Shown here piece after piece: positions 588-11,138 of a stretch of 11,138 nucleotides of DNA; the first letter of the stretch is position 1, and each line of letters opens with the position of its first letter. Below the pieces are notes generated by a model. The model saw nothing but the letters and a program-made list of their open reading frames with translations, searched no databases and had not been told where the DNA came from. The translations under genes and the position numbers were made by a program. Origin of the DNA: Flavobacterium psychrophilum (GTDB taxonomy: Bacteria > Bacteroidota > Bacteroidia > Flavobacteriales > Flavobacteriaceae); assembly GCA_945878515.1 (NCBI GenBank), contig CAMCTL010000119.1:1-11138 (forward strand), written 5' to 3'.

Positions 588-1616
588 ATGAATAAACGAT
601 TTGAAATTGCAGATTTATTAAAAGGCATCGCTGTACTATTAATGATTCAGGTTCATATTATTGAATTATTTGCAAATGTTTCCATTTTTGATAGCAAAAC
701 AGGTCGTTTTTTACTTTTTTTAGGTGGCTCTTTTGTAGCGCCAGTTTTTTTGTTTCTATTTGGCTATTTTATTGCCCACTCCACTAAAACCAATTCGCAA
801 CAAATAGGGAGAGGATTCAAAATCTTCATTTACGGCATGCTGCTAAACGTGGCTTTGAATTTTAATTTATTCATAAAACACAGTGAAGGTCAAATCGAAT
901 TTGATATTTTTCCTTATTTATTTGGTATAGATATTTTGCAATGTGCTGGTTTAAGTCTCATTATTATTACTTTAATACAAAAAGTGTTTTATAAAAATAA
1001 GTTAATAGCCACTGCTTTACTATTGTTTTCGGCTTTTCTAGGTGGATATTTATTGCAGTACAAAACCGATTCTATTTTCCTTAAATACCTGTCCGCTTTT
1101 TTTTACGGAAGCACCTCTTGGTCTTATTTTCCAGTTTTTCCTTGGATAGCATATCCGTTGATGGGAATGATTTTTTTTAAAAGTAAAATTGACTTTAAAA
1201 TCCTAGCGAATCCTATTGCTAAAATTTCAATTTATTTGTTATTGATAGTGTTTTTATTTTTTACTATAAATGATGCAATAGCGCAATCTTCAAATTTAAA
1301 CTCTTATTACCACCACGGTTTGATTTTTTTTATATGGACAATGATTTTTATCGCTTTTTATGGATTCATGATTAATGAAGTGGATATTTTGTTTGGTAAA
1401 TCTTTTGTGTTCAAATACATAAAATGGTTAGGCCAAAATGTAACCGCTATTTACGTTATACAATGGATTTTAATTGGAAATATTTCAACAGCCATTTATA
1501 AAAGCATCGATAATCCTATTATTTTACTAGTATCATTTATAGGCATTCTCCTCATTTCAAGTATTATCGCTTTTCTATATGTACAAATAAAAGAAGGAAA
1601 AAAATTTGCTGATTAA
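588..1616 (+). CDS. Multi-pass membrane acyltransferase-like protein (HGSNAT/DUF1624 type)
   Basis: A 342-residue integral inner-membrane protein with about nine to ten hydrophobic segments. The N-terminal segment reads 'FEIADLLKGIAVLLMIQVH' (residues 5-23), matching the '(R)xxxxDxlRGiaxllMixxH' start of the heparan-alpha-glucosaminide N-acetyltransferase catalytic family (DUF1624) and the related acyltransferase-3 group; His23 is the likely catalytic position. A second hallmark is 'FPVFPWIAYPLMG' at 181-193, and 'LGQNVTAIYVIQW' at 281-293 resembles the late 'lGxnslaiYxxH' helix with Gln in place of the usual His. Known members transfer acyl groups across the membrane to sugars or other extracytoplasmic acceptors; the acceptor here is unknown. 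It starts on the base after the receptor stop codon, so it is probably made from the same transcript. Its last four bases overlap the end of the convergent ATP-grasp gene. An acyltransferase-3 assignment is the main alternative. Confidence 0.72.
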   Translation: MNKRFEIADLLKGIAVLLMIQVHIIELFANVSIFDSKTGRFLLFLGGSFVAPVFLFLFGYFIAHSTKTNSQQIGRGFKIFIYGMLLNVALNFNLFIKHSEGQIEFDIFPYLFGIDILQCAGLSLIIITLIQKVFYKNKLIATALLLFSAFLGGYLLQYKTDSIFLKYLSAFFYGSTSWSYFPVFPWIAYPLMGMIFFKSKIDFKILANPIAKISIYLLLIVFLFFTINDAIAQSSNLNSYYHHGLIFFIWTMIFIAFYGFMINEVDILFGKSFVFKYIKWLGQNVTAIYVIQWILIGNISTAIYKSIDNPIILLVSFIGILLISSIIAFLYVQIKEGKKFAD

Positions 1617-3103
1617 AGCATTTTAAATCCTCCTTCTAATTCCAACAATAATTCTTCTTCGGTTAGTGCTCCCATATCAAGCATGTCTGACACATATTGT
1701 TTTTTTAGTGCTTTTATCCAACGATTGGCTCTTTCTGACAATTGAAAGTCATCAGACATTAACCTACCTCTTAACAATAAAATCCCCAAATCGGCTCCTT
1801 CGTACAAGTAATCCTCTTCTTGAGTTATTTGCATAAAAAAAGCTTCATTATCTCCAACAATTGACTGTCGATGGGCATCCATTTTTTTGAAATTGATATT
1901 CCCATTATTTTTCATTTCCCAAATTCCAGATTTTGGTACTTTTGTTGCCAACTCAAGTGTTTTTCGAGTATGCTTTAAAACCAACTGACTCCAACTGTCC
2001 ATATTTTTAGCTTCTGCCCATCGGTTTGTTAATTCATCAGCATTAATTTCATACGGAATTTCCATCCATTCTAAAATGTGAAACAAGAATAATGGCACAT
2101 CAGTCATTGCAAATTTAGAATGGTTGGTCAGACTGCTCACGCCTGAAACTCTTGGGTTTAATTCTCCCAAATAAACTTCGCCATTGTCTTGATCTATTAA
2201 ATAATCCAATTCAAAATACCCTTTGTACCCTTCTTTACGCAATTGGTCACCAAATCGTTGGGTGTAAACTTTTGCTTTTTCTCTAATATCAGCATTGAAT
2301 GCATTTGGATAGATTTCGTTGCCACACCAACCGCCTTTGTAAGGAGTTAATGCATCAAAACCTACCAATTCAGTCATCAAAGGAGCGACAATTGTACCGT
2401 GTTGGGTAACACAACCTTCAATAGCGGTGCCTTTGCAATTGATACGTTTCATGATTTTTACTTCTTCTTCTTTCAAAATTTCTTCTGCATAAAGGTTGTA
2501 TTCGGCTTCATTTGAAATAAAAAAAGTAGTATGTCCAGAATCTCCAAAAGGAGTTTGTACCACAAGATTTTCTCCTAAAGCTGCGGAGATTTCTCGAAGT
2601 TGGTTATAGCTTGTCACTTTAGAAAGTACGTTAGGAACGCAAGCTACACCAGCTTTTTCGGCAATTCTGTTGGTGTTGACTTTATTGTCCAGAAAAGTGC
2701 GAAGTTGTGCCGAAGGAAAACAAACATCTAGTCCCAAAATTCGGGCTAGTTGCTCTGTTTTCTCATTGAACATCAAAAAAAGTGCTTTTCCAGCTTGTCC
2801 ATTTACTTTTCGTGAATTGATATATTCAATAACTTCTGGGTGCACCAATAAATAATTATTGATGTCTTCGATGCTAGTAAAATCTTCGTGATCAATTTCT
2901 AAAGGTGAAAATAAATTTTCATATTCTCCACCATAAGAATCAATATGACTTATGAATTTGAAATTAGAAATCCATTCGTCCATTCCTAATAAATTAAAAT
3001 TGGTAGCACTTATAAAATAAATTGGTGTTTTATTTTCACGAAAAAAATGTTTGATTTCATTTAATCCTTTAAGAGTTGGTATGTTCTGATTGAAATTTGA
3101 CAT
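1613..3103 (-). CDS. ATP-grasp ligase (often annotated biotin carboxylase-like)
   Basis: A 496-residue cytoplasmic protein with an ATP-grasp fold. Residues 1-135 form a pre-grasp region. The ATP-grasp core runs from about 138 ('FLDNKVNTNRIAEKAGV', the usual lid-subdomain start) to about 335. The glycine-rich loop is 'VVQTPFGDSGHTTFF' (181-195). The metal-binding region 'GYFELDYLID...GEVYLGELNPRVSG' supplies Asp300, Glu314 and Asn316, with Arg318 following, the classic Mg-ATP ligand set. About 160 residues of uncharacterised C-terminal sequence follow. The family makes an acyl phosphate from a carboxylate and ATP, then couples it to an amine or other nucleophile. No biotin-carboxylase-specific partner (biotin carrier or carboxyltransferase) is nearby, so that label is probably only fold-level. 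The loop has Gln183 where many ATP-grasp enzymes have Lys. It lies 24 nt downstream of the decarboxylase, whose amine product is a plausible acceptor. Substrates are inferred, not shown. Confidence 0.85.
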   Translation of the reverse strand: MSNFNQNIPTLKGLNEIKHFFRENKTPIYFISATNFNLLGMDEWISNFKFISHIDSYGGEYENLFSPLEIDHEDFTSIEDINNYLLVHPEVIEYINSRKVNGQAGKALFLMFNEKTEQLARILGLDVCFPSAQLRTFLDNKVNTNRIAEKAGVACVPNVLSKVTSYNQLREISAALGENLVVQTPFGDSGHTTFFISNEAEYNLYAEEILKEEEVKIMKRINCKGTAIEGCVTQHGTIVAPLMTELVGFDALTPYKGGWCGNEIYPNAFNADIREKAKVYTQRFGDQLRKEGYKGYFELDYLIDQDNGEVYLGELNPRVSGVSSLTNHSKFAMTDVPLFLFHILEWMEIPYEINADELTNRWAEAKNMDSWSQLVLKHTRKTLELATKVPKSGIWEMKNNGNINFKKMDAHRQSIVGDNEAFFMQITQEEDYLYEGADLGILLLRGRLMSDDFQLSERANRWIKALKKQYVSDMLDMGALTEEELLLELEGGFKML

Positions 3104-3127: not shown

Positions 3128-5857
3128 TTACTTTTTCTCTCCAGCTTGAATGGCTTGCATCGCATACATTGCTCCCATTGCTGACACGGTGTTTTTTCTG
3201 TTTAATGCTTTTACAGCGAATACTTTCAATCCCAAATCGGCTCGATAACCGTGGATTTCTTTTACATCTAACGCCAACATAAATTGAATGATTTCCTTGC
3301 TAACAATTTGGCCTGGAACTAAAATTGGAAATCCAGGCGGATAAGGAATTACAAACGAGGTAGAAACCAATTCCTTTTTATTCTCAATTGCTTTTAGACA
3401 ATCATTTAAAAGTACATATTCGCACAAATCTTCTTCATATCCCAGAAAAAATGCTTCCCTAAGATTGCCTCCTGGAACGCCCGGCGCAGCTAGAAAAGAA
3501 TTGTGAAAACTACTGAAATTGGGCAACGGTGGTACATCTTTAATTAAAGATTGAATTTGTTTTTTAGAGATTTCAGCTTCACGTTTATTCAACGATCGGT
3601 TGTTGTCTTCTAGTTCATTGGCTATTTGCAAAAGCGCATTAATCAAAAAAGTAACACTGCCTCTGGTTGTGCCAATATTGGTCATTAGCAAAACAGTATT
3701 TCTTGATGTTTTATTGACTTGAATGCCAAAACGATCCATCAAATATTTGTTTTTGAATGCATCTCCAGTGATTCCAGCTTTTCCTACTGATAATGTAATT
3801 TTAGTTGGATCTAATACAAATTCATCTTTTTCCCAAGATTCTTCCATTCGATTCCAGCCTTTTTCTAGATTATAATACTCATTAGTACCATTGCTTCTGA
3901 ATTCTTTTGGAATTAAATCATTTGGGCTTAAAAAATGAAATATGGTACTCAACTTTGGATGGTCTTTCATTTTGGCACGAAGGATCAAAGCCATTTCAAT
4001 ACTTTTTTCAACAAGTTCATATCCTTCGAGTTCAACTTGCCTTCTTCCTACATCAAGCGAAGCCAAAATTTGGTAATTTGCTGATGTTGAAGTATGTGTC
4101 ATATACGATTCCTGAAAAGCATCGGCAACACCTCTGCTAAATTCTTCATCCCATATTTGAATCATCGAACCTTGACGAAAACTAGACAAGGTCTTGTGTG
4201 TACTTTGAGTAGCGTAAACTCTAATTTTTACTTTGTCTGGATCTGGCATTGTGGGAATTTCTCCCTTTTTTAAAGCGCTAATGTGTGCATTGTACTTTTC
4301 TCTGTACGCTGATGTTTTGTATTTATTGAATAATTTTTGTGCAACATACATTCCGGTTCTTTGTTTGAAAGTATAGGTAAAACGGGCAAAAGCAAACCAA
4401 GCCTCATCCCACAAAAAGACCATATCTGGCTTTATAGCCAAAACCTCTTCCATTACTTTTTCGACATTGTAAACCAAACCATCAAAAGTGCAATTGGTCA
4501 ACGAAAGCATTTTTACTTTGTCTAACCTTCCTGCTTGACTCAAGGAAACCAATTTTTCTTTGATAACTCGCAAAGGAACAGCTCCATACATAGAATATTC
4601 TTCCATTGGATACGAATCAAGATAGGCAGGAAATGCTCCCGCGAGTACCAATCCGTAATGATGCGACTTGTGACAATCTCTATCAATCAAAACAACGTCG
4701 CCAGGTTTTATCAAGGCTTGATGCACAATTTTATTGGAAGTAGAAGTTCCGTTTGTCACAAAAAAAGTATGCTCAGAACCATAAGCCTTAGATGCTTTTT
4801 CTTGTGCTTTTTTCAATGGACCTGTCGGTTGCAATAACGAGTCTAAACCTCCATTTGTCGCCGATGTTTCTGCCAAGAATACATTTCTGCCATAAAAATC
4901 ACCAAAATCAGAAATCCATCTGGATTTAAAAACCGAATTTCCCCTGGATATTGGCATCGCATGAAATACACTTATTGGACGCTTGCTATACTCGGAAAGC
5001 GCTGTGAAAAAGGGAGTTTCGTAGCGTTCATTAATGCCACTAATGATGGACAGATGCAGTTCTTGCAAATCTTCCATTCGGTAAAAAATACGTCGAAATG
5101 TTTTTACAGTATTGTCTTCGAGATGAGTAAGCGAAGCATCGGTAATGTAATAAATATCTAATTCCGGTCTAAATTGATGAATGTATTTGCCAAGTAAAGT
5201 TCCCAAATCTTGGTCGGAAACGCCATCTAAATCAATTTTTAAAACATTTTGGATAAATGGTTTAATTAGTTTATTTATATTTTTCGAATAATGCAAAGGC
5301 GCAGATCTAATGACCGCAACTTGAATATTATAATTAAAAAAAAGACAAATTAATGCGTCTTGAAAGGAACGTTGCACCACTAAATCGTACGAAAAATTAT
5401 CTCTTGAATCTATTAATGATTTCGATTTCTTTTTTAATTCTTTTTCTTCATTGTCTGATAAATCTTCAACATACAAAACTTCAAAAAAATTGCTTTTGGC
5501 ATCTAATTTTTTTTTATTCTTGTTATCCTTTATGCTTTCAAAAAATTCAGGTTTCAATTCTGGATGCATGCGATAATCTTCACTAACCAACAAAGCGACA
5601 ATTTCGGAAACCCGATGACTAACGGCAACAAACTCTGATTTTTTAACTGCTTTCATGATTTGATTTGTTAAATCAGCGCCAGGAAAAGCAAAATATTGCT
5701 CAATACACAACAGGTTTTGCATTATACCATTAAGTTCGGTCAACCTTTCTTCGAAACTGTCATTTTCTAAATTAAAAGTGATTAAATTACTTTGCTCTTT
5801 TAACTCATTCCATAAATCTACTCGAAGTTGGTTGACGTTGTAATGTTTTGAAATCAT
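3128..5857 (-). CDS. PLP-dependent Orn/Lys/Arg-type amino acid decarboxylase
   Basis: A 909-residue fold-type I decarboxylase of the Orn/Lys/Arg group, longer than E. coli LdcI (about 715). Residues 1-125 are an extra helical region, and about 155-245 resemble the receiver-like wing domain. The PLP core has 'TNGTSTSNK' (368-376), 'DRDCHKS' (392-398; His396 should stack on PLP), 'NCTFDGLVYN' (455-464), 'WDEAW' (Asp484 for the pyridine nitrogen) and 'QSTHKTLSSFRQGSMI' (551-566), with Lys555 as the Schiff-base lysine. The C-terminal domain has 'PYPPGFPILVPGQ' (838-850) and 'IHGYRADLGLKVFAVKAL'. Compared with LdcI from memory, about 34 residues are inserted between Asp484 and Lys555, the 'PGH' near the core start is replaced by 'MPISRG' (301-306), and the usual Glu after 'PG' is Gln850. 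The likely product is cadaverine, putrescine or agmatine, but the changes make the substrate uncertain. It is the middle gene of a tight minus-strand operon. Confidence 0.9.
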   Translation of the reverse strand: MISKHYNVNQLRVDLWNELKEQSNLITFNLENDSFEERLTELNGIMQNLLCIEQYFAFPGADLTNQIMKAVKKSEFVAVSHRVSEIVALLVSEDYRMHPELKPEFFESIKDNKNKKKLDAKSNFFEVLYVEDLSDNEEKELKKKSKSLIDSRDNFSYDLVVQRSFQDALICLFFNYNIQVAVIRSAPLHYSKNINKLIKPFIQNVLKIDLDGVSDQDLGTLLGKYIHQFRPELDIYYITDASLTHLEDNTVKTFRRIFYRMEDLQELHLSIISGINERYETPFFTALSEYSKRPISVFHAMPISRGNSVFKSRWISDFGDFYGRNVFLAETSATNGGLDSLLQPTGPLKKAQEKASKAYGSEHTFFVTNGTSTSNKIVHQALIKPGDVVLIDRDCHKSHHYGLVLAGAFPAYLDSYPMEEYSMYGAVPLRVIKEKLVSLSQAGRLDKVKMLSLTNCTFDGLVYNVEKVMEEVLAIKPDMVFLWDEAWFAFARFTYTFKQRTGMYVAQKLFNKYKTSAYREKYNAHISALKKGEIPTMPDPDKVKIRVYATQSTHKTLSSFRQGSMIQIWDEEFSRGVADAFQESYMTHTSTSANYQILASLDVGRRQVELEGYELVEKSIEMALILRAKMKDHPKLSTIFHFLSPNDLIPKEFRSNGTNEYYNLEKGWNRMEESWEKDEFVLDPTKITLSVGKAGITGDAFKNKYLMDRFGIQVNKTSRNTVLLMTNIGTTRGSVTFLINALLQIANELEDNNRSLNKREAEISKKQIQSLIKDVPPLPNFSSFHNSFLAAPGVPGGNLREAFFLGYEEDLCEYVLLNDCLKAIENKKELVSTSFVIPYPPGFPILVPGQIVSKEIIQFMLALDVKEIHGYRADLGLKVFAVKALNRKNTVSAMGAMYAMQAIQAGEKK

Positions 5858-5888: not shown

Positions 5889-6326
5889 TTATTTTTTTGA
5901 ATGCAATGCCAATCTATTGCCTTCAGAATCTATAAACATGGCAAAATATCCTGCGGAATCACTCAAAAAAGTTTTTTCCATCACAACTCTTCCGCCTGCT
6001 TCATTCACTTTTGATAAAACATTGTTTAAATCCTCACCTCCATTCAAGTACATTAAAGGGCCAATTTCGCTAGGAACACAACCTGGTCCAGAAACTATTG
6101 CGCCACCAATTCCATTTTCGGCAGGAAAAAAACCCATTGCAAAACCATTTAATTCTACAGATGTCATTTGAATGCCGTAGATATAATTGTAAAAAGCCAC
6201 CGAACGAAAATGATTATAGGCTGGAATTTCGAACCAACTTACAAAATTTTTAAAAGCAGATTGTTCTTTTTGTTTGTTTAATGCTGCCTCTCTTAATTTA
6301 CTTTTTAGATTTACTGTAGATCCCAT
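5889..6326 (-). CDS. VOC-family (glyoxalase/bleomycin-resistance fold) protein
   Basis: A 145-residue protein with the paired beta-alpha-beta-beta-beta modules of the vicinal-oxygen-chelate superfamily. The first module starts at 'FVSWFEIPAYNHFRSVAFYNYIYG' (28-51), with Glu33 at the usual first metal-ligand position. The domain continues through 'GGAIVSGPG' (74-82) and 'PLMYLNGGEDL', and ends with 'GYFAMFIDSEGNRLALHSKK', the standard closing strand of predicted VOC lyases and dioxygenases, with His142 near the end. A 27-residue charged leader precedes the domain; no other in-frame Met occurs before residue 54, so the start at 6326 is the best available. It is the first gene of the operon, 31 nt upstream of the decarboxylase. 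VOC proteins include glyoxalases, dioxygenases and binding proteins, so the role is open; modifying a substrate of the decarboxylase/ligase pathway, or detoxification, are both possible. Confidence 0.86.
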   Translation of the reverse strand: MGSTVNLKSKLREAALNKQKEQSAFKNFVSWFEIPAYNHFRSVAFYNYIYGIQMTSVELNGFAMGFFPAENGIGGAIVSGPGCVPSEIGPLMYLNGGEDLNNVLSKVNEAGGRVVMEKTFLSDSAGYFAMFIDSEGNRLALHSKK

Positions 6327-6557: not shown

Positions 6558-6616
6558 CAACTTTTTTCTAAAAGCGAATGCACTGTGATTATATTGAAAA
6601 ATAGTAAAAAATTTTT

Positions 6617-6638
6617 GATTGTCCGTTTTTAGTCATAA
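6617..6638 (+). repeat. Left terminal inverted repeat of the IS
   Basis: It begins gattgtccg and pairs with 7574-7595 at about 17 of 22 positions. It includes the transposase stop codon (TGA on the minus strand, 6635-6633), so the reading frame runs into the element's end. Confidence 0.75.
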
Positions 6639-7538
6639 CCCTGTAATGCTTGCTATCACTAGTCTATCGAATAATTTTTCCTCAAAATACCGTCTATTCA
6701 GCTTGTAAACGAACTCATTTAGGTATAATTGAAGATATTTTCCCTTAATTTTGTGGAAATTTCCTAAAAAATTCCTTTTAGCATTACTAATTGCAATATG
6801 TACCCATCTTAAAGTTTCTGTTGTTGTTTCTTTATTCGATTTTTCAGTAATATGAATCTCTACATAATCTGCAATATCTATATATGATGTGCTTTTGTCT
6901 GTAAACAGAATACTTTTTTCAGAAATAGATTCCTGGATTGTTTGATTTATCTGTTCCGATGTATGATCTGTCAAGACCTTTGCTTTAAAATATCTGCAAT
7001 GATTTGATTTTTCTCCCGTTTCAATATCTTCTAAAACTGTTGACTCTGCCATAATTGCAACGTTTGATTTTCCAACAGCACCACGACCACGAATTCCTTT
7101 TTCTTGTTCTATTTCAGAAGATTCAATTGTAAAATATCCTTCGTCAAATTCAATCATTCCTTCCAGAGTATAACGCGCATCTCTATTGCCCATTGCTTTT
7201 CGCAACTTATGAACCATAGACCAAACCGGTTCGTAACGTTTCAAACCCAGTTGCTTTTGAATTTCTTTACTTGAGAATCCTTTTTTAGTTGCCGTTAAAA
7301 GGAACATCGTTTTGTACCAAGTCAAGAATGATAAATTAGAACTTTGCATTATCGTTCCGCTACGTAACGAAATTCTGCTCCTACATTTTTTACATTCATA
7401 ACTCCATCTGCTTTTTATCCAAAAATGCTCTTTGCTGCCGCATTTACATTGAACTCCGATTTTGTCTCTTTCTTCTTTAAAATGAAGCCTGCAAGATTCC
7501 TCACTCCCAAAATTTGCTGTAAAATTGAATAGATTCAT
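6633..7538 (-). CDS. IS1595-family transposase (ISXO2-like DDE domain)
   Basis: A 301-residue transposase when started at the ATG at 7538-7536; a TTG start five codons upstream (7553) is possible but less likely. The N-terminus has a zinc ribbon with Cys pairs in 'CKCG' and 'CKKC', followed by 'SLRSGTIMQSSNLSFLTWYKTMFLL', typical of the IS1595 zinc-finger region, and a helix-turn-helix-like stretch ('SSKEIQKQLGLKRYEPVWSM'). The ISXO2-like catalytic domain has the first Asp in 'EFDEGYF', the second in 'LFTDKSTSY', and 'HIAISNAKRNF', which supplies the Asn-Lys signature used by some IS1595 subgroups instead of Glu. The end, 'YLQLYLNEFVYKLNRRYF', is the usual C-terminal motif. No frameshift or stop interrupts the frame, so the enzyme could be active. 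It cuts and joins the terminal repeats of its own element. Confidence 0.92.
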   Translation of the reverse strand: MNLFNFTANFGSEESCRLHFKEERDKIGVQCKCGSKEHFWIKSRWSYECKKCRSRISLRSGTIMQSSNLSFLTWYKTMFLLTATKKGFSSKEIQKQLGLKRYEPVWSMVHKLRKAMGNRDARYTLEGMIEFDEGYFTIESSEIEQEKGIRGRGAVGKSNVAIMAESTVLEDIETGEKSNHCRYFKAKVLTDHTSEQINQTIQESISEKSILFTDKSTSYIDIADYVEIHITEKSNKETTTETLRWVHIAISNAKRNFLGNFHKIKGKYLQLYLNEFVYKLNRRYFEEKLFDRLVIASITGL

Positions 7539-7550
7539 CGCTTTTTTTGT

Positions 7551-7558
7551 CAAATATA
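7551..7558 (-). promoter_or_regulatory. Candidate -7 element for the transposase gene
   Basis: The minus strand reads TATATTTG here, an exact match to the Bacteroidota -7 consensus TAnnTTTG. It ends about 12 nt before the ATG at 7538, which would leave a very short 5' leader and low translation, as is common for transposases. No well-placed -33 TTG was found, so support is limited. Confidence 0.3.
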
Positions 7559-7573
7559 AAGCTTTTTTTTAAA

Positions 7574-7595
7574 TTATGGGTAATTGCGGACAATC
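7574..7595 (-). repeat. Right terminal inverted repeat of the IS
   Basis: Read on the minus strand it begins gattgtccg and ends cataa, like the left repeat, with five mismatches in the middle. It lies about 36 nt upstream of the transposase ATG, so the promoter must lie within or just inside the repeat. Confidence 0.75.
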
Positions 7596-7655
7596 AAAAA
7601 ATTTATCTCTTTATTAAAATTGTGAATTAATATACTATTTTTACAGACGAAACCC

Positions 7656-7692: not shown

Positions 7693-9900
7693 ATGACGTT
7701 AATTTCAAAATTAAAAACAAACTATTGGCTTCAATGTGTTTTAAACAGCTACAGTTTGATTTTTTTTTCTAACGATAATCTGTTTGCAATTTGTATTCTT
7801 ACCGTTTGCTTTTTTACACCATTTGTTGGTTTATGTGGTCTTGCTTCGGTGGTATTAATAAATGTAGCAGCCTATTTTATTGGTTTTAATAAAGAAGAAA
7901 TAAAAATAGGATTGTTTGGGTTTAATGCACTTTTTTTAGGAATGGCGATTGGATATGAATTCAATTTTAATTTTGCGTTTGTAATCTTGTTGATCTCTTC
8001 GATTATAATTTTATTATTGATTACTGTTTCGCTAAAAGGTTTTTTATCGACAAACTATTTGCCTTTTTTATCACTTCCTTTTATTATAACGTATTGGATT
8101 GTTTCACTTTCTGCGACAAATTTCACTAATATTCAATTGGACGAAAGTCATATTTATCTCGTAAACGAAGCAGCGCGAAACCAAACTTCGCCAATTTATG
8201 TTTTTATCAATTCGTTAGATACTATCGCATTGTTTCCTTTAGCTATTACTTATTTCAAGACTTTGGCAGGCACTTTTTTCCAAACAAGTGTTCTTGGCGG
8301 AATAATTATCGCATTTGGATTATTGCAATTTTCTAGAATAGCATTTTCATTGAGCATATTGGGTTTTACTTTCGCTTATTTTTATTATTCTATTTTTGGC
8401 GCCGACGTCAACGATTTAAATCACAATTTATTAGGAGCTAATTTTATTTTCCTGTCCATTGCAATTGGTTGTTTTTTTGTAATTCCAAATATCAACAGCT
8501 ATTTTGCAGTTGTTGTACTTACACCGGTTCTATTACTGACAACACTTGCTTTGACTAAGATTTTGTCTGTTTTTCAAATACATACTTATTCATTTTCTTT
8601 TAGTTTGATAACAATTTTGTTTTTGTTTGCACTCAATCAAAGGTTGTTTTCTAAATATTTGCATTTGATAACTATTCAATATTTTTCCGCAGAAAAAACA
8701 ATTTACAAATACCTAAATTCTATTCAACGATTCAAAAATGAGCATTTGTATAAAATTTCATTGCCTTTCGTTGGCGAATGGAATGTAAGTCAAGGTTATG
8801 ATGGAAAAATTACGCATTTAGGAGATTGGAGCAAAGCATTAGATTTTGTAATAGAAGATTCTAAATCGAATACTTATATGATTCCTAAATCTGCAAGAGA
8901 AGGTTTTACAAAAGATAGTTTTTATTGTTACAATAAAGAAATTCTTGCGCCATTTGAAGGTTATGTTTATGATATTATTAATACTGTTGAAGACAATGAT
9001 ATTGGCGATATGGACACAAAACATAATTGGGGCAACACCATTATTTTGAACCATCTTAATGGATTATTTTCACAAATCAGCCATATCAAAAAGGATTCAT
9101 TTGGGGTTTTTATTGGTCAATATGTAACTAAAGGCACTTATCTAGCAAGATGTGGCAATTCTGGTCGATCTCCAGAACCGCATATTCATTTTCAATTGCA
9201 AACTATCCCAATTGTTGGAGCTAAAACACTTGAATATCCAATTTCTTATTTTATTGAAAGACACGGAAACGAAAGAAAATTAATCATTTCTGAAGTTCCA
9301 AAAGAAGGTGCTTTTATAAGCAATGTTCAAGTAAACGAATTATTGATTGTTGGATTTGCGCTTATGCCAGGTCAAAAAATAGTGATGCAAAAAGAAAACA
9401 GTATCGAGAAAATTTATTGGGAAATATTTACCGATGCCTTCAATAGAACCTACATTTATTGCGAAAAAACAAAATCTTATGCTTATTTTATCAATGATGG
9501 AACAATGTTTTATTTTACAGATTTTGAAGGCAAAAAATCTTCGTTGTTATTTCAATTTTATTTAGCTAGCTATAGACAATTGTTGGGGTATTACGAAACA
9601 ATTACTATTCAAGACAAAGTGCCATTGATACATTTCAACAACAAATTTATTGCTTTTTTTCAAGATTTTTTCGCACCATTTTACTTGTTTACAAAAGCAA
9701 ATTACACCTCTACTTTTTCTTATGCAGATAATCAATATGCGCCACAAAAAATACTTATAAATAGCGAAATCGAAGCCAAAATAATCAATTATACTTTCAA
9801 GAAAATTAACTATGAATTTGAATTAAAAGACCTTAGAATACAACGTTTTACGATTCATCACAAAAATAAATCAACATCTTATCAATATGCTTTACAATAA
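7693..9900 (+). CDS. Urea-transporter-like membrane domain fused to M23 metallopeptidase
   Basis: A 735-residue two-domain protein. Residues 12-318 are strongly hydrophobic, about ten membrane segments in two halves. Each half carries a urea-transporter-like signature: 'GLFGFNALFLGMAIG' (73-87) and 'LNHNLLGANFIFLSIAIG' (242-259). This matches the internally duplicated UT channel family, which passes urea down its gradient. After a linker (about 320-355) comes an M23/LytM peptidase domain: 'THLGDWSKALDF' with His375 and Asp384, 'SHI' with His464, and 'GNSGRSPEPHIHFQLQ' with His497 and His499, so the zinc and catalytic residues appear intact. These enzymes cut peptidoglycan cross-bridges or act as LytM-type regulators, so this domain should face the periplasm. 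Residues 505-735 are beta-rich and unrecognised. It is the first gene of a plus-strand operon with two TPR genes. Both domain calls are good; the substrate of either half is inferred. Confidence 0.87.
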   Translation: MTLISKLKTNYWLQCVLNSYSLIFFSNDNLFAICILTVCFFTPFVGLCGLASVVLINVAAYFIGFNKEEIKIGLFGFNALFLGMAIGYEFNFNFAFVILLISSIIILLLITVSLKGFLSTNYLPFLSLPFIITYWIVSLSATNFTNIQLDESHIYLVNEAARNQTSPIYVFINSLDTIALFPLAITYFKTLAGTFFQTSVLGGIIIAFGLLQFSRIAFSLSILGFTFAYFYYSIFGADVNDLNHNLLGANFIFLSIAIGCFFVIPNINSYFAVVVLTPVLLLTTLALTKILSVFQIHTYSFSFSLITILFLFALNQRLFSKYLHLITIQYFSAEKTIYKYLNSIQRFKNEHLYKISLPFVGEWNVSQGYDGKITHLGDWSKALDFVIEDSKSNTYMIPKSAREGFTKDSFYCYNKEILAPFEGYVYDIINTVEDNDIGDMDTKHNWGNTIILNHLNGLFSQISHIKKDSFGVFIGQYVTKGTYLARCGNSGRSPEPHIHFQLQTIPIVGAKTLEYPISYFIERHGNERKLIISEVPKEGAFISNVQVNELLIVGFALMPGQKIVMQKENSIEKIYWEIFTDAFNRTYIYCEKTKSYAYFINDGTMFYFTDFEGKKSSLLFQFYLASYRQLLGYYETITIQDKVPLIHFNNKFIAFFQDFFAPFYLFTKANYTSTFSYADNQYAPQKILINSEIEAKIINYTFKKINYEFELKDLRIQRFTIHHKNKSTSYQYALQ

Positions 9901-9928: not shown

Positions 9929-10543
9929 ATGAAAAATTTAAAAAATGCTTTTGCACTGCTTGTTTTCTTGATTTGTATGACATTACAAGCGCAAAATAAA
10001 GAAATTGCTGCTGCTTTTAGTCGTTCTTATGAATATGAAAATGCGAAAAAACATGAAACTGCCATTGCAGCATTCAATACTGTTTACGACACAAATTCGT
10101 ATGAAATGAATTTAAGATTGGGTTGGCTTAACTATTTGGCTGGAAAAAACAAAGAATCTATTTCTTACTATCAAAAAGCGGCTGCCAATATGCCCGCGGC
10201 TACCGAACCAAAATGGGCAATAATTACTGTTTATACAAAATTAGAAAATTGGACAGAAATTGAGAAAACTTATTTATCAATTTTGAAATTAGATGCTAAA
10301 AATGCTACTGCTAACTACAATTTAGGATTAATATATTACTATCGAAAAAATTATATTGAAGCAAAAAAATACTTTGATGTATCATTAAATCAAACTCCAT
10401 TTGGATATAATTATTTGCTAATGAGTGCTTGGACAAATTACTTTTTAGGAAACAAAAATAATGCTTCCATCTTGTTTAATAAGGTTTTGTTATATGCTCC
10501 AAATGATGCCTCAGCATTAGAAGGATTGGGATTGATTAAATAA
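9929..10543 (+). CDS. Secreted tetratricopeptide-repeat protein
   Basis: A 204-residue protein from the ATG at 9929; an in-frame ATG at 9887 would overlap the preceding gene and put 14 polar residues before the signal, so 9929 is preferred. The N-terminus 'MKNLKNAFALLVFLICMTLQAQ' is a clear Sec signal peptide, probably cleaved after 'LQA' and leaving Gln first, a common Bacteroidota pattern; there is no lipobox. The rest is built of about five TPR-like helical hairpins (roughly 24-57, 60-93, 95-124, 125-158 and 160-193), seen in 'LRLGWLNYLAGKNKESISYYQKA' and 'ANYNLGLIYYYRKNYIEAKKYF'. TPR arrays bind protein partners, so this is probably a periplasmic scaffold. It lies 28 nt after the UT-M23 gene and 14 nt before the next gene, so it probably links the two. 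Its partner is not known. Confidence 0.85.
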   Translation: MKNLKNAFALLVFLICMTLQAQNKEIAAAFSRSYEYENAKKHETAIAAFNTVYDTNSYEMNLRLGWLNYLAGKNKESISYYQKAAANMPAATEPKWAIITVYTKLENWTEIEKTYLSILKLDAKNATANYNLGLIYYYRKNYIEAKKYFDVSLNQTPFGYNYLLMSAWTNYFLGNKNNASILFNKVLLYAPNDASALEGLGLIK

Positions 10544-10557
10544 AAAATCTTTTGAAT

Positions 10558-11138
10558 ATGATGATTGGAAGCAATTTTAAGCCCGTATTGTATTTGTTTA
10601 TTTTCAGTTTATTTTTTCTAAAATCATATTCTCAAAATGAAATAGACGCGGCAGAAATAGAAACAAAAACCTTTGAGTTCTATACAAACAAAAATTGGAA
10701 TTCCTTAATTTCACTTGGAAATGAAGCCCTTAAAAACGGTAGCGATTATTTCTATTTGCGAATGAGACTAGGAATAGCCTATTATGAGCAGAAAAATTAT
10801 TGCCTAGCTTTAGTTCATTTTAAAAAAGCAATTGATTTTAATGCAACCGACGATTTAGCAAATGAATATTTGTATTACAGCTACACCTTTATAGGACAAG
10901 AGGAAGAAGCTCGAAAATTGAGCACTACATTCTCATCAGAATTAAAAGAAAAATTAGGTTTGAACAATACTCCTGTAATAGATTTTATTGCAGTTAGCGG
11001 AGGTTTAAAAAATGCAAATAGTTCTCTTTTTGAACAAGCTAATTTTTTTGAACTCGGATTGAAACACTATTTAAAGAATAACTTTTCATTATTTCATGCA
11101 GTTAGCACGTTCAATCAAGAAACTTGGATAGGGAAAAT
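10558..11138 (+). CDS. Secreted TPR protein, probably with an outer-membrane barrel (3' end cut by window)
   Basis: The frame opens at ATG 10558 (a second Met follows directly) and stays open to the right edge, giving 193 residues of an incomplete protein. Residues 1-26 are a signal peptide with a hydrophobic core 'VLYLFIFSLFF' and a probable cut near 'SYS-Q'. Residues 28-125 hold two or three TPR-like hairpins, clearest in 'YFYLRMRLGIAYYEQKNYCLALVHFKKAIDF'. From about 139 the pattern changes to alternating strands with turns ('IDFIAVSGGLKN', 'ANFFELGLKHYLKNNFSLFHAVSTFNQ'), as in the start of an outer-membrane beta-barrel; TPR-plus-barrel proteins of the YaiO kind are a possible comparison. 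It is third in the operon, 14 nt after the previous stop. The secretion and TPR calls are good; the barrel is inference from a short stretch. Confidence 0.75.
   Translation, partial: MMIGSNFKPVLYLFIFSLFFLKSYSQNEIDAAEIETKTFEFYTNKNWNSLISLGNEALKNGSDYFYLRMRLGIAYYEQKNYCLALVHFKKAIDFNATDDLANEYLYYSYTFIGQEEEARKLSTTFSSELKEKLGLNNTPVIDFIAVSGGLKNANSSLFEQANFFELGLKHYLKNNFSLFHAVSTFNQETWIGK

Follow-up and report, generated by a model that had tools for sequence, protein, structure and literature searches.

The window, by which we mean the whole stretch of 11,138 nucleotides analysed here (Flavobacterium psychrophilum, contig CAMCTL010000119.1), carries on its forward strand one uninterrupted open reading frame (7693..9900) that encodes 735 residues followed by a stop codon. 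Its product, hereafter UT-M23, joins a channel domain of the urea transporter type (residues 14-313, 7732..8631; PF03253, 141.1 bits against a Pfam gathering cut-off of 25) to an M23 peptidase domain that spans residues ~350-520 (8740..9252) and matches PF01551 (Peptidase_M23) over residues 414-503 (43.5 bits, gathering cut-off 28.7). The rest of this plus-strand frame, residues 521-735 (9253..9897), is modelled with high confidence as a beta-rich domain. An earlier note, made from the sequence alone, had called the C-terminal ~230 residues unrecognised, and indeed they match no family of Pfam or NCBIfam; a structure search with the whole model, which barely tests this domain, named no fold for it. 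The model used was an AlphaFold (AF2) model with a pLDDT of 90.5, a first one from a shallow alignment (pLDDT 62.8) having been discarded. With it, the structure search found the UT fold over residues 1-345, further than the Pfam match. Of the GFN/AIG-like signatures that had been described for both halves of the channel, the first half does have a GFN-type motif, together with LPxxSxPF, but the second half of the window protein reads GAN and not GFN.

The fusion of channel and peptidase in one polypeptide is real, since a single frame holds both domains above their cut-offs, and it recurs in other genomes. The 120 proteins listed among 2248 matches to the window protein all carry both domains (68-100% identity), as do all 120 listed among 1299 matches to a distant member, both totals being drawn from word-limited candidate sets. 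The expectation that similar fusions occur in other Bacteroidota was borne out in 34 of 395 genomes (with 1.2e-91 for the weakest match counted; G001, the centre genome, is one of the 34 and was selected for having the fusion). By their source names, distant relatives come from Persephonella and Hydrogenothermus (Aquificota), Calditrichia, Planctomycetota, Verrucomicrobiota, Desulfobacterales, SAR324 and Eremiobacteraeota. A frame or assembly error that joined two genes is ruled out as the origin of the fusion by the single open reading frame and by the number of independent sequences. What could be cited in favour of such an error comes from Chloroherpeton thalassium (L099:7944-10198), where the UT and M23 halves are two ORFs in different frames that overlap by 4 bases at a run of seven T; this split may be a natural fission, a slippage site or a sequencing error.

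Some matches lack the channel. Among 12 M23-only matches whose N-termini were printed, 8 still carry some of the final UT helix, whereas 4 begin in the linker or in M23; none of the 12 has a signal peptide by eye. A 929-aa ORF in L021 was considered as a further fusion, with a TPR protein, and rejected because it reads across a run of N. Viral contigs gave 8 pattern matches and no relative of UT-M23, the 50 matches listed from a viral fold library were of M23 type or unnamed, and none of 19 matching plasmid records covered >80% of the query. UT-M23 is an unusual tie between known domains; among the open-licence papers searched we found none on the fusion and did not find its operon described.

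The peptidase site and the channel pore

The five active-site residues reported in the earlier note (zinc ligands and catalytic histidine), H375, D384, H464, H497 and H499, are all present in the window and near-invariant among its relatives. We collected 101 loci (80 plus the window, then 20 more hand-picked from the 34 fusion genomes), which provide 102 ORFs because L099 contributes two pieces. Each of the five residues occurs in 101 of these 102 ORFs, the odd row being a gap, in all 120 close database proteins, and, in the order given above, in 120, 120, 119, 120 and 120 of 120 proteins of the distant set. From their conservation in both close and distant sequences we infer selection for catalysis, beyond mere binding. 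Domains of the M23 type usually act as hydrolases on the cell wall, and the structure matches of this one are of that kind. It differs from known M23 peptidases (DipM, EnvC LytM, lysostaphin, ShyA, Csd1/2) in being tethered behind a UT channel, on what is predicted to be the cytosolic side, in having H375 and D384 nine residues apart (a THLGDWSKALDF-type motif), and in sitting in an operon of metabolic enzymes.

The whole fold of UT channels (dvUT, 3k3f; UT-B, 4ezc and 9j22; UT-A2, 8xd9) is common to residues 1-345 of UT-M23, whereas the fusion to M23 and to a further domain is not, and the pore has also changed. We aligned it to dvUT, with a numbering that is partly provisional and in which F80 is anchored by the title of 3m6e. 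The canonical set Q24/E187/F80/F240/T130/T294 is incomplete in UT-M23: the outer-site acid of the second half, equivalent to E187, has given way to G, A, S, T or M in every one of the 63 fused proteins, whereas of 7 canonical Bacteroidota UTs 6 have E and 1 has Q there. The remaining residues are partly kept. At the F240 equivalent most proteins have S, F, A, L, V or T, often S or A, and in the distant set 109 of 120 proteins have E or D at position 22. We find it very improbable that UT-M23 is an ordinary urea channel, which would vent or take up urea with M23 as a passenger. Such a role would fit the UT fold and the several pore motifs retained, but the protein scores only 91.2 bits against the equivalog urea_trans_yut (TIGR03441, NCBIfam), far under the cut-off of 274.6, the second-half acid is absent throughout, and the M23 site is kept across phyla. 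Furthermore, no urease or agmatinase gene is among the neighbour clusters identified, whereas a canonical yut gene on a Providencia plasmid adjoins ureD.

Gene neighbourhoods of the fusion

Two genes follow UT-M23 on the same strand. The first (9929..10543) encodes a TPR protein recognised by Pfam; its frame is open from 9887, the likely start is M15, and a signal peptide is visible by eye. The second (10552..11136) is open-ended and cut by the window end; it has a weak TPR match and a predicted outer-membrane beta-barrel, a prediction made by eye from the sequence, with no match to a barrel family. Homologues of the two were found at 90 and 82 of the 101 loci, respectively, the second measuring ~439 aa in relatives.

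On its other side, the fusion is mostly found in one of two settings, which we call module A and module B. Module A lies upstream on the same strand and comprises genes for a PqqD-like protein (PF05402, 1.1e-10), an ATP-grasp enzyme and a PLP decarboxylase of the Orn/DAP/Arg family (PF02784, 9.6e-35). Homologues of the decarboxylase, the ATP-grasp enzyme and the PqqD-like protein occur at 67, 65 and 55 of the 101 loci, and the intergenic gaps in the operon are mostly small or negative, the genes then overlapping. All 20 added loci have ATP-grasp and decarboxylase genes upstream (L098 has a 159-aa ORF in between), and 16 also have the PqqD-like gene. Over genomes, the module-A ATP-grasp (E <= 1e-30) is present in 33 of 395, all within the 34 that have the fusion (hypergeometric 2.4e-47), and the sole fusion genome without it at this threshold, G001, has module B.

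The nearest solved structure to the module-A decarboxylase is the N-citrylornithine decarboxylase 7kh2 (2.7e-66). The enzyme shares a C-M-x-x-D site with FslC, at which LysA types have an acidic residue. FslC, an N-citrylornithine decarboxylase, acts on an amide-conjugated substrate. By analogy, these likenesses suggest that the far end of the module-A substrate is already conjugated when it is decarboxylated; the ATP-grasp ligase would do the conjugating. FslC, LysA and BtrK belong to the same PLP Orn/DAP/Arg decarboxylase family, and the module-A enzyme scores below both the FslC model (NF041039, 256.6 vs 500 bits) and the LysA model (227.7 vs 297.9 bits). Its partner ligase is an ATP-grasp enzyme, whereas that of FslC is a NIS synthetase; butirosin BtrJ/BtrK is a parallel.

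A PqqD-like protein beside an ATP-grasp enzyme raised the question of a RiPP cluster, but we found no precursor peptide for the PqqD-like protein among 327 small ORFs lying <=1.5 kb upstream of the ATP-grasp gene at 59 loci, the largest groups of which (<=14 loci) look like pieces of neighbouring genes, for example of a LytTR regulator. The excerpts of the graspetides paper PMC8939145 make no mention of M23 or urea. At the Rfam gathering threshold, neither the window nor 13 module-A loci showed a riboswitch at the operon; this set matched three tRNAs and, in L078, a single TPP element that lies ~7 kb away from the operon.

Module B, the setting in the window, is transcribed divergently from UT-M23 there and in its clade. 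Its genes, all on the minus strand, encode a small VOC/glyoxalase-like protein (c6, 5889..6326), for which PF00903 gives only E 0.078, below the cut-off, an OKR-type decarboxylase of 909 aa (c7, 3128..5857; PF01276, 4.8e-78) and an ATP-grasp enzyme of 496 aa (c9, 1613..3103) that matches NF005096, 'biotin carboxylase', with 719.2 bits (cut-off 684). The module-B decarboxylase of L003 matches the Rv2531c structure 9n0o over nearly its full length (4e-235). According to the excerpted text of PMC12910592, that structure is solved and the activity itself unknown; the module-B enzyme differs from Rv2531c in adjoining UT-M23. The c6 cluster is represented at 25 of 81 loci and adjoins the fusion gene in 24 of them, at a spacing of 105-543 bp, whereas in the window an IS1595-type insertion sequence (6608..7604, minus strand) intervenes. 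Its transposase ORF spans 6633-7553 (NF033547, 6e-58), and its terminal arms are 31 nt long and 81% complementary. Only 88 bp separate the element from the UT-M23 start downstream, whose promoter it may affect. The window also encodes, at 588-1616, an HGSNAT/acyltransferase-like membrane protein with homologues at 14 of 101 loci, most of them located beyond module B.

Replacement of one module by the other

In a tree of 99 of the 101 loci (L021 and L099 were left out by length), all 24 module-B rows fall into one 29-row clade that is nested among module-A rows; the other five rows of this clade have neither module in the locus. When 13 module-B genomes were searched for the module-A ATP-grasp, 11 had no match and 2 had matches of just 26-28% identity, while a control genome was matched; G001 gave no match either. 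For the module-A decarboxylase, G001 yielded a single match (26%) and G002 no match. Neither module was seen in 9 of the 99 rows. Five of these rows (L024, L034, L037, L056, L070) start at the very edge of their locus or close to it, with the upstream DNA unseen; of the other four, L062 has module A and L015 and L023 have module B elsewhere in the genome, and L060 has neither in a genome of 1.9 Mb that is perhaps incomplete.

Because module B replaces module A in a single nested clade, two unrelated pairs of decarboxylase and ATP-grasp enzyme appear to serve one gate. What counts against this reading is that of the 395 genomes 7 have the module-B ATP-grasp, and 6 of these lack the fusion. In these six fusion-less loci (L102-L107) the OKR decarboxylase lies alongside in 6/6 and the VOC-like gene in 3/6, and the gene set looks like an unassigned amine pathway: the neighbours scanned in L106 resemble a GABA aminotransferase, a carbon-nitrogen hydrolase, a C45 hydrolase and SSADH, and the C45 gene was confirmed in L102 too.

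The pore may have changed along with the module. Between the B clade (30 proteins) and 10 near module-A proteins, five columns of the whole protein differ at 90% fixation: 22 (Q to L), 81 (L to F), 322, 331 and 416. Columns 22 and 81 belong to a set of 20 pore and motif columns drawn up in advance, and the chance of at least two such hits is 0.007 over the protein and 0.018 over UT alone. With so few sites, and a dvUT numbering that is partly provisional, this is suggestive of a selectivity filter that changes with the module, and not proof of it.

Orientation of the peptidase domain

The M23 domain had been taken to be periplasmic, a placement that our analysis does not confirm. In the excerpts of the sources consulted, UT-B has ten transmembrane helices with both termini intracellular (PMC3869693), and human UT structures have ten transmembrane and two pore helices per subunit (PMC10541013); the text of PMC13279936 gave no guidance on topology. 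The AF2 model shows no further transmembrane helix between UT and M23. Mean net charges in 63 fused proteins are +1.33 at the N-terminus, +0.68 at 62-75, -2.22 in the linker between the halves, -1.62 at 234-246 and +1.60 at 316-332. These mostly follow the 7 canonical UTs, which have +1.29 at the N-terminus, -1.57 in the linker and -1.00 at 234-246, and +1.43 at 314-345 where the fused proteins have +2.40. The M23 domain is therefore predicted, from homology, model and charge, to be cytosolic.

Several observations count against this prediction. Canonical UTs are slightly negative at 62-75 (-0.14), unlike the fused proteins. The distant set, with +0.74 at the N-terminus, -0.97 at 234-246 and +2.01 at 316-332, is net negative at 62-75 (-0.35) and at 333-356 (-0.66), and its linker is just -0.58. 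Moreover, of the 12 nearest standalone M23 relatives fetched, 11 were printed and 10 of these 11 have a signal peptide by eye, so this M23 fold is normally extracytoplasmic. A composition classifier for the location of M23, with a balanced accuracy of ~0.81, gave a median probability of secretion of 0.52-0.53 and thus favoured neither side. Conserved cysteines lost weight as an argument for a cytosolic M23, since secreted relatives have cysteines too and C412 and C590 are lineage-specific. In five of the secreted relatives (L108, L111, L113, L115, L117) one cysteine lies in an APC motif and another ahead of GNSG, and the two perhaps form a disulfide by the active site; the APC cysteine is mostly missing from UT-M23 proteins, with 6 of 63 having it.

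These observations keep alive a rival in which UT is inverted and M23 is periplasmic. By cutting peptidoglycan or binding to it, M23 would open the wall, or provide an anchor in it, at the place where the TPR protein and the outer-membrane barrel assemble a conduit. The usual role of M23 domains, the structure matches to wall hydrolases, the apparent secretion of the standalone relatives and the signal peptides seen by eye in the downstream partners would all suit it. We nevertheless judge it unlikely, because the positive-inside pattern and the homology to UT-B place both termini inside, the model has no extra transmembrane helix, and the gene found always linked when tested over genomes encodes a metabolic enzyme. 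The related suggestions of wall remodelling and of a LytM-like sensor are not supported either: the conserved neighbours identified are small-molecule enzymes and TPR or barrel proteins, with no wall genes.

Discussion

Since the fusion travels with genes for ligating and decarboxylating amino acids, UT-M23 is probably the gate of a small-molecule pathway rather than a tool for the cell wall. We propose that it is the inner-membrane gate of an envelope-spanning system. Two cytosolic enzymes, an ATP-grasp ligase and a PLP decarboxylase, in most cases accompanied by the PqqD-like protein, would make a conjugated and decarboxylated amino-acid derivative, the ligase conjugating before the decarboxylase trims. 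M23, at the cytosolic mouth of the channel, would then hydrolyse an amide or peptide bond of the conjugate, the UT pore with its altered selectivity filter would let the small released part through, and the periplasmic TPR protein and the outer-membrane barrel would carry it over the rest of the envelope. This whole chain, in which a conjugate is made, cut by M23 and passed out via UT, we put forward tentatively, as somewhat short of an even chance; that the genes form one operon and one system we hold to be more probable than the chain. The data show the fusion, its folds and conserved catalytic residues, the operon, the co-occurrence and, in one clade, the exchange of modules; the cytosolic M23, the outward direction, the bond that is cut and the product are our inference.

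A more specific form of the proposal is a coupled exit gate, in which a cytosol-facing M23 and a passive UT pore together free and pass a small amide or amine, the two biosynthetic modules being interchangeable and the filter following them. That the channel may pass an amide had also been suggested in the earlier note. We regard the coupled exit gate as a minority possibility. If true, it would be the small-molecule counterpart of peptidase-containing exporters, across many bacterial phyla. C39-type ABC exporters likewise pair a membrane transporter with a peptidase that faces the cytosol. UT-M23 is not a member of that group, as it has no ABC part and its peptidase and channel are unrelated to theirs.

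The flow might also be inward. UT channels are passive and work both ways, and a peptide-like or amide nutrient could enter through the barrel and the UT pore, be cut by M23 on arrival, and be assimilated by the ligase and decarboxylase module. The catabolic set next to module B in L106, one of the six fusion-less loci, would agree with this. Against it, the aminotransferase, carbon-nitrogen hydrolase and C45 genes of those loci have no BLAST match at 1e-6 among fusion-locus proteins, the SSADH-like gene having just a ~26-28% match, and the ATP-grasp and PqqD-like genes look biosynthetic. We thus consider inward flow a rather poor prospect, yet, like a periplasmic M23, a live rival to the outward gate.

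If the operon reading is true, UT-M23 proteins are the sign of a metabolite system not described before, one that is present at least within Bacteroidota and perhaps in further phyla. The names that databases give to UT-M23 fusions are mixed, and proteins annotated as 'urea transporter' or 'murein hydrolase activator' may be neither. Two metagenome-assembled genomes titled Actinomyces viscosus and Bifidobacterium breve (L031 and L072) have the operon inside Bacteroidota branches, and their titles look wrong.
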